Shown here piece by piece: positions 54,612 to 61,634 of a stretch of DNA of 61,634 bases. This stretch comes from a bacterium. GTDB lineage: Bacteria > Bacillota_I > Bacilli_A > Izemoplasmatales > UBA1188. Below the pieces are notes generated by a model. It ran no database searches, was not told where the DNA came from, and saw nothing but the letters and a program-made list of their open reading frames with translations. Both the position numbers and the translations under genes were made by a program. The stretch covers positions 1 to 61,634 of the forward strand of contig JAGCYY010000025.1 of the NCBI GenBank assembly GCA_017960565.1. Reading direction: 5' to 3'. Position 1 is the stretch's first letter, and each line of letters begins with the position of its first letter.

Positions 54612-55214
54612 ATGGCAAGATACACTGGACCTTCTTGGAAGAAAGCTAGAAGATTAAATTATTCTATTCTCGGTGGAGAAAAAGAATTAGCTAAGAGGCC
54701 TTATGCTCCTGGTCAACACGGACAAGGAAGAAAGAAAATTACTGAATATGGTACTCAGCTCCAAGAAAAACAAAGAGTTAGATATGTCTATGGTTTAACT
54801 GAAAAACAATTTAGAAAGACATTCGATGAAGCTAAGAAGATTAAAACTGGTAAACAAGGTGTAAACTTCCTCTTCTTACTAGAATCACGTCTAGATAATC
54901 TAGTTTATAGAGCTGGTTTTGCAAGAACTAGACAACAAGCTAGACAACTTGTTACTCATGGTCATATCACACTTGATGGTCATAAGGCAGATATTCCTTC
55001 AATCAGAGTTAAACCTGGTCAAGTTATATCTATCAAGGAATCTTCAAAGAAATTAACTATCATCGCTGAAGCTTTAGAAGCTCAAGTTGTAAGACAACCT
55101 TATGTTGAATACGATGAAGAAAAGATGGAAGCTAAATATTTAAGATTACCTGAAAGAGAAGAAATTCTTCCAGACATCAAGGAAAATCTAATCGTTGAAT
55201 TCTATAATAGATAA
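54612..55214 (+). CDS. rpsD: 30S ribosomal protein S4
   Basis: The 200-residue uS4 starts [20 protein letters not shown]. It has the [15 protein letters not shown] motif without the zinc-binding cysteines (C- type), and the S4 RNA-binding domain [20 protein letters not shown]. It initiates 30S assembly and probably represses its own mRNA. AAGGAGG precedes the ATG. It is monocistronic and divergent from thiI. Confidence 0.98.
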
Positions 55215-55275
55215 TTCAATAATTATTGACTCTTTCCAATAGAATCTACATCTTTGGAAGTCCAAGTCAAATGAG

Positions 55276-56945: not shown

Positions 56946-58241
56946 TTATCCGATTATCGATAGGATTTCTGTTGATTTAAGATGCTTCTTTTCATATAGA
57001 AGATTACCTAAATCAATTATTTGTTTTTTATGAGATTTAATATATTTAATTGTTTCTTTTTCACATTTTTTGAGAAGGAGTTCAACTTTTCTTTCTACTT
57101 TTCTTCTTTTTACTTGAGATTCTTCATAATCATAAGAATCAGGTTGTGTTTCCCAACAAGATGAATAACCATTAAAACCTACAACATCATAAGCTTCTTT
57201 TCTAACTCTTGATAGATCATTTTCACAACCTAATGAGCCTCTACCACAAATAATCTTTTGGCCTAAAATACCAGCCATACAAATTTTAATATCTGCGATG
57301 ACTTTATCATATGGCCAGAAGCCTTCTTCAACCTCTTTAGCAGAAAAATATCCACTATCACCATAAATATTTAATCTCTTAACTTCAAAGAATTTAGAGA
57401 ATGAATATGCAACTATTGCGTGTGATGCTTCATGAATTGCAACTTCAAAATTATCTTCTCTATTTGCTGATTTTATTTTATCGCTAATATTGAGAATAGA
57501 TTTATCTATCATTTCTGTTGTAATATTATCGAATCCATTTCTAAGCACTAGATCATTTACAACAGCTTTTATACCAGCACAAGAATTAGAATATAGTGAT
57601 AGGCCAACTTCATATTCATCAAAATCAAGTGGTAGTTTTACATTAAATTTATTGCAGTGGAACTTAAATAGTTCTACTGCTTCTTCACTAGATGGATATG
57701 GAATGCCAATCACTTTTTCAAGTCTTCCATTTCTTAGGAGTGCACTTGGAATATCTCGTAAAGAGTTTGTCGCAGCAAGTACTAAGATATCATCGCTTGA
57801 TTCAACACCATCTAGGTTTTCTTGAAGAGCTCTTACAACTCTATTATTCTTGGATATTAGAAGATCTAATTCATCAAATACTATGATTGAATGTCCTATT
57901 TCTTTGGCTTTATTAAATACTTCAACTATTCCTTCAACTGTGTTTTCTTGTTCATCTTTAAAAATAAATACAGGAGCTTTACAATAATTAATTATTTCTT
58001 TTATTAATAGTGATTTACCATTTCCTGGATCACCAAATAGAATTACACCTCTTGGAATTGATATTCCTTTGTCTTTTAGTTCTTTAGAACGATTAAACCA
58101 GTCCACAACAAATAATAATTCCTCTTTTTGTTTTTCATGGCCTACTACGTTTCTAAATGGCTGTAGGGTCTCTTCTTCATTAGTTTTGTAAATTAATTCA
58201 TATGGTATCTTATCCATATCTTTTTTAATGTTTTCTTCCAT
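56946..58241 (-). CDS. Soluble FtsH-like AAA+ metalloprotease without membrane segments
   Basis: The 431-residue protein has an AAA+ module (residues about 25-240). Its motifs are Walker A GDPGNGKS (70-77), Walker B IIVFDELD (119-126), sensor ATN (157-159) and the arginine-finger region LLRNGRLEK. An M41-type peptidase domain follows, with HEASH (270-274) and a plausible third zinc ligand at D342 in CENDLSRV. FtsH normally begins with two membrane helices and is over 600 residues; here both are missing and the protease domain is shortened. Cytoplasmic regulated proteolysis is the inference. GGAGG precedes the ATG at 58241. Confidence 0.85.
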   Translation of the reverse strand: MEENIKKDMDKIPYELIYKTNEEETLQPFRNVVGHEKQKEELLFVVDWFNRSKELKDKGISIPRGVILFGDPGNGKSLLIKEIINYCKAPVFIFKDEQENTVEGIVEVFNKAKEIGHSIIVFDELDLLISKNNRVVRALQENLDGVESSDDILVLAATNSLRDIPSALLRNGRLEKVIGIPYPSSEEAVELFKFHCNKFNVKLPLDFDEYEVGLSLYSNSCAGIKAVVNDLVLRNGFDNITTEMIDKSILNISDKIKSANREDNFEVAIHEASHAIVAYSFSKFFEVKRLNIYGDSGYFSAKEVEEGFWPYDKVIADIKICMAGILGQKIICGRGSLGCENDLSRVRKEAYDVVGFNGYSSCWETQPDSYDYEESQVKRRKVERKVELLLKKCEKETIKYIKSHKKQIIDLGNLLYEKKHLKSTEILSIIG

Positions 58242-58662: not shown

Positions 58663-58697
58663 AAAAAAACAACTAGTAGCTCAAAAAGCACTAGTTG
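58663..58697 (-). terminator. Terminator of the PD-(D/E)XK gene
   Basis: CAACTAGT (58670-58677) pairs with ACTAGTTG (58690-58697), and TTTTTTT follows on the minus strand. Between 58531 and 58662 nothing else is recognised. Confidence 0.88.
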
Positions 58698-58757: not shown

Positions 58758-60224
58758 TTATTCAATTTCATTTTCAGTAACTTCGACAGGATTTTTAACT
58801 TCTACCTTAGGTGCTGGCTTAATCCATTTTTTAAAGTACTGCATTATTGATTCATAAAAATCTAATACATATTTTTCTTCATATGCGATAGATTTAACAG
58901 GACTATAGAAATCTTGGCCAATCTCAATTTCAGAAACAATATAAACCTTTTTTAATTCAGCGTTTTTATCGATAATAACATTCTCTGGTTTTAAAAAATC
59001 TGAAATTTTATATTTTAAATCGTCATTTTTTCCTTTTGTGATAACCAGTACATTTGTATAATTAGAGAAAAATTGGAATCCTTCTTGAGATTTCTTTTGA
59101 GCCGATTTTAAAAAGTCTCTTATAAATGCTAGTTTTGCTTTTATGGAGCCATCCTCAGGATAAGAAACTAAGAATTGTTGCTTAATTACTTTTCTTGTAG
59201 GATCCATAGTTACTTCTAATGGAGAAACAGCATTTGGAATTCTATAGATTGATTGTAGAATTTTTTCAGTCTCAAGCAATTTTTCATCTTCTTTTATTCT
59301 TTCATCGATTGATTGTTTTGTTTTCTTCTCACAACTAACTTTAATAATTTCACTATCAGTTAATTTGTCTCCAAGTTTAAATGCTAAATCTTTTTCTTGT
59401 TGAATCCAATCAAGAATAATCGTTGAGATTTGCTTTTTTATTTCTGTGTTTGGAACAAAATTGCCTGAACCAACTTCTCTCATTAATGGTTTCCAACAAT
59501 CTGACATTTTTTCAAATGTTTTGATTGCACCACAATCGCTATAATATTTATTTATCTCACCCATGATTTCAAGTTGATCTTCATCCTCAATTCCACCAGT
59601 TGAACTTCTAAATAGACCAACTCCTAAAATTCTTAAGCCATCCCATGTAAAGTGATATAAATCGATTTTTTTCTTTTCAGCATATTTTTTAACTGATTGT
59701 AAAGGGGAATGGGTAAAACTTGTAACATATTGGTTAGATATTGTAACAAATTTTTGAATACCTAAAGTTTTTGCCATATCCAAATATAGTAATAATTGAT
59801 TTTCATCAAGTTGATTACTACCTATTTTCATTTCAAATATAATAGCATCTTTGATATCGCCTTTATTGTTTGTTAGTAAAACAAGTCCATCAAATCTTGC
59901 TTTTTTCTTTTCATCACTATCAGCAAATAGTAGTGGAAAAGAAACTTCTTTCAAACATATGATATTGTTGGCTTTAGATACTTTTATCATGTCAAATATT
60001 TCATTTCTAAATTCTTTGATAAATTTTAAAGATGATAAAAATACAGAAGCAACAGCTAATTCATCATCCTTCTTGCCAATAGGTATTAGTCTTGCCTTTG
60101 AGGCATACATTTCTATTCCTTTTTCATCAACAGACTCTTTTGAATCAGCAGGCGTAATACTCAAATTTTTGTAATTAATGGTGGTATTCTTTCCGACTAG
60201 TCCTTTGCTTAAAATACTTTTCAC
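58758..60224 (-). CDS. Uncharacterised protein with a PD-(D/E)XK nuclease-like domain
   Basis: The 488-residue protein has a nuclease-type arrangement in residues about 55-165: E55 in a helix, D112 in RFDGLVLL, E131-x-K133 in AIIFEMKIG and Q143 in LDENQLLLYLDM. These match motifs I-IV of PD-(D/E)XK enzymes. The following 320 residues, mixed alpha/beta with a Pro-rich tail, are not recognised. The start is a GTG with GGAG 9 nt upstream. It has its own promoter and terminator. A DNA-directed or defence role is an inference from fold and location only. Confidence 0.7.
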   Translation of the reverse strand: MKSILSKGLVGKNTTINYKNLSITPADSKESVDEKGIEMYASKARLIPIGKKDDELAVASVFLSSLKFIKEFRNEIFDMIKVSKANNIICLKEVSFPLLFADSDEKKKARFDGLVLLTNNKGDIKDAIIFEMKIGSNQLDENQLLLYLDMAKTLGIQKFVTISNQYVTSFTHSPLQSVKKYAEKKKIDLYHFTWDGLRILGVGLFRSSTGGIEDEDQLEIMGEINKYYSDCGAIKTFEKMSDCWKPLMREVGSGNFVPNTEIKKQISTIILDWIQQEKDLAFKLGDKLTDSEIIKVSCEKKTKQSIDERIKEDEKLLETEKILQSIYRIPNAVSPLEVTMDPTRKVIKQQFLVSYPEDGSIKAKLAFIRDFLKSAQKKSQEGFQFFSNYTNVLVITKGKNDDLKYKISDFLKPENVIIDKNAELKKVYIVSEIEIGQDFYSPVKSIAYEEKYVLDFYESIMQYFKKWIKPAPKVEVKNPVEVTENEIE

Positions 60225-60269
60225 TTTTTAAGTCTCCTTCCAATATGTAATTAAGCTGTTAAAAGCATT

Positions 60270-60298: not shown

Positions 60299-60486
60299 TT
60301 ATAAGAGTATATGTAACAAAAACTATATACTTTTCATTCGCAAAGATTATAACTAGCTTACCACCAGTCTCATAAATAGCATCAGATAGCTCAAAACAAG
60401 GTTTTACTCCTCTTCCTGCTTCGCCTAAGTCGATTACCTCTTTTTTTCTTTTCATCCTCGGCTCTTAATTCAATAATAATCTGCAT
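60279..60486 (-). pseudogene. Small gene with a one-base frameshift in an A7 run
   Basis: GGAGG precedes ATG at 60486, starting MQIIIELRAEDEKK. The frame then closes early, but dropping one A from the run of seven (plus-strand T7 at 60441-60447) continues as EVIDLGEAGRGVKPCFELSD to a TAG at 60279, 68 residues in all. The family is unknown. Either a recent frameshift or slippage at the homopolymer is possible. Confidence 0.6.
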
Positions 60487-60547
60487 TCATTTATCCTCCT
60501 TATGCATAAAATTAACCATAAAGAGAAAAAAACTGATAAAGTAAATA

Positions 60548-60600
60548 TACGGTGGTGTAAACTACGGCTGTCATTATACGATGGTGTGATTTTACACCAC
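60548..60600. repeat. Operator-like direct and inverted repeats
   Basis: ATACGGTGGTGT (60548-60558) and ATACGATGGTGT (60576-60587) are direct repeats about 29 bp apart. GTGGTGTAAA (60552-60561) and TTTACACCAC (60591-60600) are perfect inverted repeats. They lie between divergent units: the frameshifted gene on the left and a TATAAT (60639-60644) plus small reading frame on the right. Confidence 0.6.
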
Positions 60601-60676
60601 TTTATAATTACAGCTGTATTTTAAAAGAAAAACCCCTCTATAATATTATTGAGAGACATATTAATGGAGGGGGACT

Positions 60677-60769
60677 ATGAATAGTCAAAATAATTATATC
60701 ACAATGCTTTGGAATCTAAATAAGGTTCCTAATATCGATTGGAATAAAAGCTCTTGTTCTTTTGCATAG
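60677..60769 (+). CDS. Small 30-residue reading frame with a strong ribosome-binding site, possibly truncated
   Basis: GGAGGGGG ends 3 nt before the ATG, a TATAAT lies upstream, and the frame encodes MNSQNNYITMLWNLNKVPNI and ten more residues to a TAG at 60767-60769. The expression signals are better than expected by chance, but the product is short and may be the start of a disrupted gene. The gap 60770-60874 contains nothing recognisable. Confidence 0.4.
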   Translation: MNSQNNYITMLWNLNKVPNIDWNKSSCSFA

Positions 60770-61582: not shown

Positions 61583-61634
61583 ATGAGAAAAGACGTATTT
61601 GAGGCAATTTTTATGGCGAAAAGAGAAAGTATTA
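61583..61634 (+). CDS. Start of a gene cut by the window edge
   Basis: GGGGGA lies 7 nt before ATG 61583, and the frame MRKDVFEAIFMAKRESI remains open to the end of the window. Seventeen residues are too few to assign a family. It is on the plus strand and preceded by an operator-like inverted repeat. Confidence 0.6.
   Translation, partial: MRKDVFEAIFMAKRESI

Follow-up and report, generated by a model that had tools for sequence, protein, structure and literature searches.

What is the function of the protein encoded at positions 58758-60224 of the window, the 61,634-nucleotide stretch of an Izemoplasmatales genome (contig JAGCYY010000025.1) analysed here? A preliminary description, made from the sequence, had read it as an unrecognised 488-residue protein with the motifs of a PD-(D/E)XK nuclease, a long unassigned C-terminal region and a possible role in defence or DNA processing. 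Searched alone, the protein exceeded the cut-off of no family in Pfam, NCBIfam, PADLOC or PHROGs and had no sequence match in the PDB. Matches to DUF5694 and NKWYS were rejected, as they are weak, far below cut-off and outside the proposed nuclease core. Models in PADLOC-DB 2.0, among them those for Shedu, Gabija and CBASS effectors, gave 0 matches at E values up to 1.

The gene and its surroundings

The open reading frame lies exactly where the preliminary description had placed it; that description gave no strand, and the gene is on the minus strand (58758..60224) with a GTG start. Checks of the reading frame and its translation indicate a real gene: the plus strand across 58758-60224 is stop-rich, the base composition by codon position is like that of the other genes in the window, and homologues align over residues 44-474. 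A Shine-Dalgarno sequence, GGAAGGAG, can be read 9 nt 5' of the GTG (60234..60241, minus strand). On the 3' side of the stop codon, a hairpin, CAACTAGT...ACTAGTTG, followed by seven T residues (58663..58697, minus strand; z = -5.2; not returned by a simple terminator scan), is a probable intrinsic terminator. Because this hairpin and T-run follow the stop, the nuclease gene is probably a single transcription unit that is transcribed alone.

The FtsH-like gene reported nearby is real and is the next gene downstream, 516 bp away (56946-58241, minus strand). It encodes a cytosolic protein in which Pfam recognises an AAA ATPase and an M41 metalloprotease (Peptidase_M41), with a HEASH motif. PADLOC IetA models match the ATPase part of this protein (E 1e-14), and within the genus it is matched by housekeeping-type FtsH alone, at 25-34% identity. 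A functional partnership with the nuclease gene is not supported, since the 516-bp gap and the terminator-like hairpin lie between the two genes and, beside the homologues, neither an FtsH-like gene nor any other recurrent neighbour was recognised.

The preliminary description had also pointed to operator-like repeats. An inverted repeat does exist (60541-60611; arms of 21 nt, 86% complementary and 29 nt apart), but control of the nuclease gene by it is unsupported, because the repeat sits more than 300 bp upstream and beside another reading frame, a short and apparently truncated plus-strand ORF that begins at 60677. On the same flank, a possible gene remnant can be read at 60330-60480 (minus strand). 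Separately, the start of an ORF, perhaps of a mobile element gene, occupies 61583-61634 (plus strand) and is cut by the contig end at 61634, on the right side of the nuclease gene.

Compared with same-genus genomes, the window is rearranged right after rpsD (54612-55219), where the order rpsD-tpiA-pgk is lost: in a near relative rpsD is immediately followed by tpiA, and in the window genome by accessory genes. The idea that DNA had simply been inserted between rpsD and tpiA was rejected. Since tpiA of the window genome is found on a different contig, where other genes follow it, this is a rearrangement breakpoint and not a clean insertion.

The N-terminal PD-(D/E)XK core

Invariant motifs, a profile match to VRR-NUC and the predicted fold all support the PD-(D/E)XK nuclease reading. 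As delimited by alignment, model and profile, the core spans residues 44-206 (59607..60095, minus strand) and opens with an invariant A44-R45. The residues that had been proposed for the active site are all present at their positions: E55 in the first helix (codon 60060..60062), D112 (59889..59891), E131 and K133 of an E-M-K version of the E-x-K motif (59826..59834) and Q143 (59796..59798), each on the minus strand and each invariant in 34 of 34 aligned homologues. The dipeptide ending in D112 is P-D in 32 of the 34 members and F-D in the window protein. Only 17 of the 488 residues are invariant in this 34-sequence alignment, in which identity falls to about 20%, and the chance that five random positions would all be among those 17 is about 3e-8.

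VRR-NUC sequences were collected and aligned for this analysis, and hhalign matched the core profile to their alignment at 85.6% probability over 48 columns. D, E-x-K and Q fell in register, E131-M-K133 being aligned with the VRR-NUC E-V-K; the C-terminal domain, used as a control, gave 0.1%. VRR_NUC was matched weakly by 22 of the 34 members (best E 9e-4), and other PD-(D/E)XK families were matched as well, Tox-REase-7 by 10/34 and PDDEXK_4 by 1/34. The family is like VRR-NUC (PF08774) in the order D, E-x-K, Q and in the position of Q at K+10. In contrast, its D-to-E spacing is 19 rather than 14, it carries a large extra C-terminal domain, and the two members tested individually, at 12.4 and 14.9 bits, fall below the Pfam gathering cut-off of 23.8 bits; the window protein itself had no VRR_NUC match in the Pfam search.

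The AlphaFold model of the window protein (pLDDT 79, pTM 0.74) contains the restriction-endonuclease-like core that the preliminary description had led us to expect. Its elements run helix-strand-strand-strand-helix-strand-helix-strand, the restriction-endonuclease order, and include helix 55-68, strands 87-97, 108-118 (with D112) and 124-132 (with E131), helix 141-153 (with Q143) and strand 158-163, so that D112 and E131 stand on consecutive strands. In a Foldseek search of the PDB the best match was the restriction endonuclease EcoT38I (7e8r; probability 1.00, E 4e-3), from which the window protein differs in its 14% identity, in the low TM-score and in having no methyltransferase partner seen beside its gene. 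BamHI scored lower (probability 0.54), no Foldseek match had an E-value below 1e-3, and full-chain TM-scores to known nucleases were low (0.14-0.32). Because of these low TM-scores the fold evidence alone is moderate, while the motif, profile and fold lines together are strong. We are highly confident that the N-terminal core has a restriction-endonuclease-like fold. We also hold it very likely that the protein is an active nuclease, the chemistry of the core being most likely metal-dependent phosphodiester hydrolysis, with DNA rather than RNA as the probable substrate.

The linker and the C-terminal domain

A helical linker region, recognised from alignment and model, follows the core (residues 207-300; 59325..59606, minus strand) and has conserved residues E223, F237, M240, W244 and W273. 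It leads into the C-terminal domain (residues 301-475; 58800..59324, minus strand). The preliminary description was right to leave this long region without assignment: the window gene has no family match, and the domain has neither a Pfam domain match nor a sequence match. Within the family this C-terminal region forms a second domain that is conserved. When residues 296-488 were folded separately (pLDDT 86, pTM 0.77), the domain showed the order helix, three strands, helix, strands, helix, an order shared with the type III secretion chaperones and with YbjN/TY-Chap domains. Among the matches listed, only the type III secretion chaperones ExsC and SchA exceeded a probability of 0.4 (0.44-0.69), but with TM-scores of only 0.28-0.44 the fold match is weak. 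The domain is possibly type III secretion chaperone-like, which we offer as a lead and not as a claim of membership. Chaperone-like domains of the TY-Chap and YbjN types have been described in bacterial conflict systems (PMC9503650).

Homologues and the TerD fusion

Scans of genomes and viral contigs with the single sequence as query found no relative, and an alignment query was needed for the genomes. A tblastn search of plasmids gave two Rhodococcus matches, both annotated 'TerD family protein', with E values of about 1e-7 to 1e-8 and 20% identity across 71-75% of the query. A search with the Rhodococcus unit recovered 11 plasmid records, which come from Rhodococcus and Streptomyces, and the alignment-based scan of genome contigs yielded 76 loci. 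The closest relative is from a Spirochaetaceae MAG (33% identity over residues 44-474), and further homologues were found in Rhodospirillaceae, Chloroflexota and many Actinomycetota; no homologue was found in the phage and viral collections. The gene had been described as stand-alone, and its homologues do stand alone in four phyla besides its own (Actinomycetota, Pseudomonadota, Chloroflexota and Spirochaetota), but it belongs to a widespread family and is not an isolated orphan. This family is uncatalogued in the protein libraries searched, its members being annotated 'hypothetical' or 'TerD family protein'. Nearer to the window the gene is sporadic: it was found in 1/7 genomes of the genus, 1/90 of the order and 1/392 of the phylum sample. 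When the whole class was searched with the 34-row profile, one further weak match of 44 residues appeared (E 1e-4).

The two Rhodococcus proteins consist of a TerD domain (Pfam E 2e-43), a linker and, at the C-terminus, a unit that is a homologue of the window protein. Such N-terminal fusions to the stress-sensing TerD domain occur in soil bacteria, among them Rhodococcus, Nocardia, Streptomyces and other actinobacteria. The fused Actinomycetota proteins (for example WP_241065045.1) share the nuclease and C-terminal unit over its full length at about 20% identity, whereas Pfam finds no TerD domain in the window protein. There, the place of TerD and linker is occupied by a leader, residues 1-43 (60096..60224, minus strand), which is mostly of low confidence (pLDDT mostly below 50 over residues 1-35). 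Inspection by eye recognised no Ter genes among the neighbours of the window gene. Members without TerD come from Spirochaetota, Pseudomonadota, Chloroflexota and some Actinomycetota.

An IQ-TREE phylogeny of 34 members places the window protein beside the spirochaete (100/99) and unites the TerD-type rows in one clade (100/99), which is consistent with one TerD fusion event; for one row of that clade (L043), the open frame examined had no TerD match. The window branch is very long, at 3.04 changes per column, so the exact position of the protein in the tree is less sure.

Settings of the homologues

Two Rhodococcus plasmids carry the TerD-nuclease gene near a CBASS-like cluster of SMODS, ThiF, JAB and DUF6602 genes (L002:543-9032 and L004:5209-12106), with opposite gene order in the two. 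On the contig of the closest homologue (L009:375-5656), the gene is flanked by an AAA_13 ATPase gene on one side and an HNH_4 nuclease gene on the other; the HNH of the latter is weakly Cas9-like. An Acidimicrobiia homologue adjoins a phage integrase. These CBASS-like and HNH neighbours favour the proposal that the window gene encodes a defence enzyme, but among the 25 families listed, defence-gene models match few of the 82 homologue neighbours. Nine loci of the Nocardia group have the same conserved chromosomal surroundings, which points to a stable cellular role in that group. Since the neighbours point both ways, defence is a possible reading and not the sole one, and we place a role in defence or genome conflict at slightly less than an even chance.

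Proposed function and alternatives

The gene, its family, the conservation of the motif, the predicted fold, the TerD fusion and the sporadic distribution are established by the computation; the explanation that we prefer for them is that the gene encodes a mobile, single-gene effector enzyme. In order for the protein to act in this way, the N-terminal core would bind a divalent metal through E55, D112, E131 and K133, with Q143, and would hydrolyse phosphodiester bonds, with DNA as the most likely substrate. The C-terminal domain would gate the nuclease or direct it to its target, and in the actinobacterial branch the added N-terminal TerD sensor may do so as well. The enzyme may be aimed at nucleic acid that is foreign or damaged or, once a stress signal has arrived, at the DNA of the cell itself. 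We give even odds to this best overall explanation, a metal-dependent nuclease effector that is controlled or targeted by its C-terminal domain and acts on such targets. Its sporadic presence and the synteny breakpoint after rpsD count for a mobile effector, and the CBASS-like plasmid neighbours, together with the links between Ter and phage, count for the defence side. Against it we count the low TM-scores, the Foldseek E-values, none of them below 1e-3, the few defence neighbours, the Nocardia-group synteny, the lack of a homologue in the phage and viral collections and the absence of TerD, the proposed sensor, from the window protein.

What TerD proteins do biochemically has, to our knowledge, yet to be established. 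Ter proteins have been linked to phage resistance, and TerD has been proposed to sense or bind a nucleotide-like signal (PMC7824862; PMC3710099).

Many VRR-NUC proteins have a proposed role as structure-specific nucleases, and by profile the core is closest to VRR-NUC. The protein could then be a nuclease of DNA repair or maintenance that has spread horizontally and does not serve defence, its TerD fusions responding to genotoxic or chemical stress. The conserved Nocardia-group neighbourhood and the scarcity of listed defence matches among the 82 neighbours agree with such a role; a gene found in only one of seven genomes of its genus and one of 392 sampled in the phylum, with homologues on plasmids and beside CBASS-like genes, does not, and we hold repair to be rather unlikely.

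Doubtful, too, is a more specific proposal, namely an undescribed, broadly distributed family of immunity or stress effectors in which a VRR-NUC-like nuclease would be joined to a chaperone-like C-terminal domain sensing protein or peptide, with a TerD receptor in Actinomycetota, the whole serving as a signal-gated, single-protein abortive nuclease. A restriction-like enzyme, encoded by a single gene of type IV or Shedu-like kind and reading modified or unmodified foreign DNA through its C-terminal domain, would fit a stand-alone gene that has no conserved partner and whose product comes closest in fold to a type II restriction enzyme. We consider it improbable, as no methyltransferase neighbour was seen, nothing matched in PADLOC, whose models are intended to include the known defence systems, and the fold of the C-terminal domain is more suggestive of a peptide-binding chaperone than of a DNA reader. 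That the window copy is a decaying or inactive relic, as its very long branch, its singleton status in the class sample and the apparent gene fragments nearby might suggest, is very improbable for an intact, full-length reading frame with a Shine-Dalgarno sequence that keeps all catalytic and all other invariant residues of the family.

The nuclease effector that we prefer would give a testable identity to a family that in many actinobacteria now carries no more than the label 'hypothetical' or 'TerD family protein'. Furthermore, the natural fusion of TerD to a nuclease, with TerD-free relatives as controls, would allow a direct test of whether Ter signalling is linked to the cleavage of DNA.
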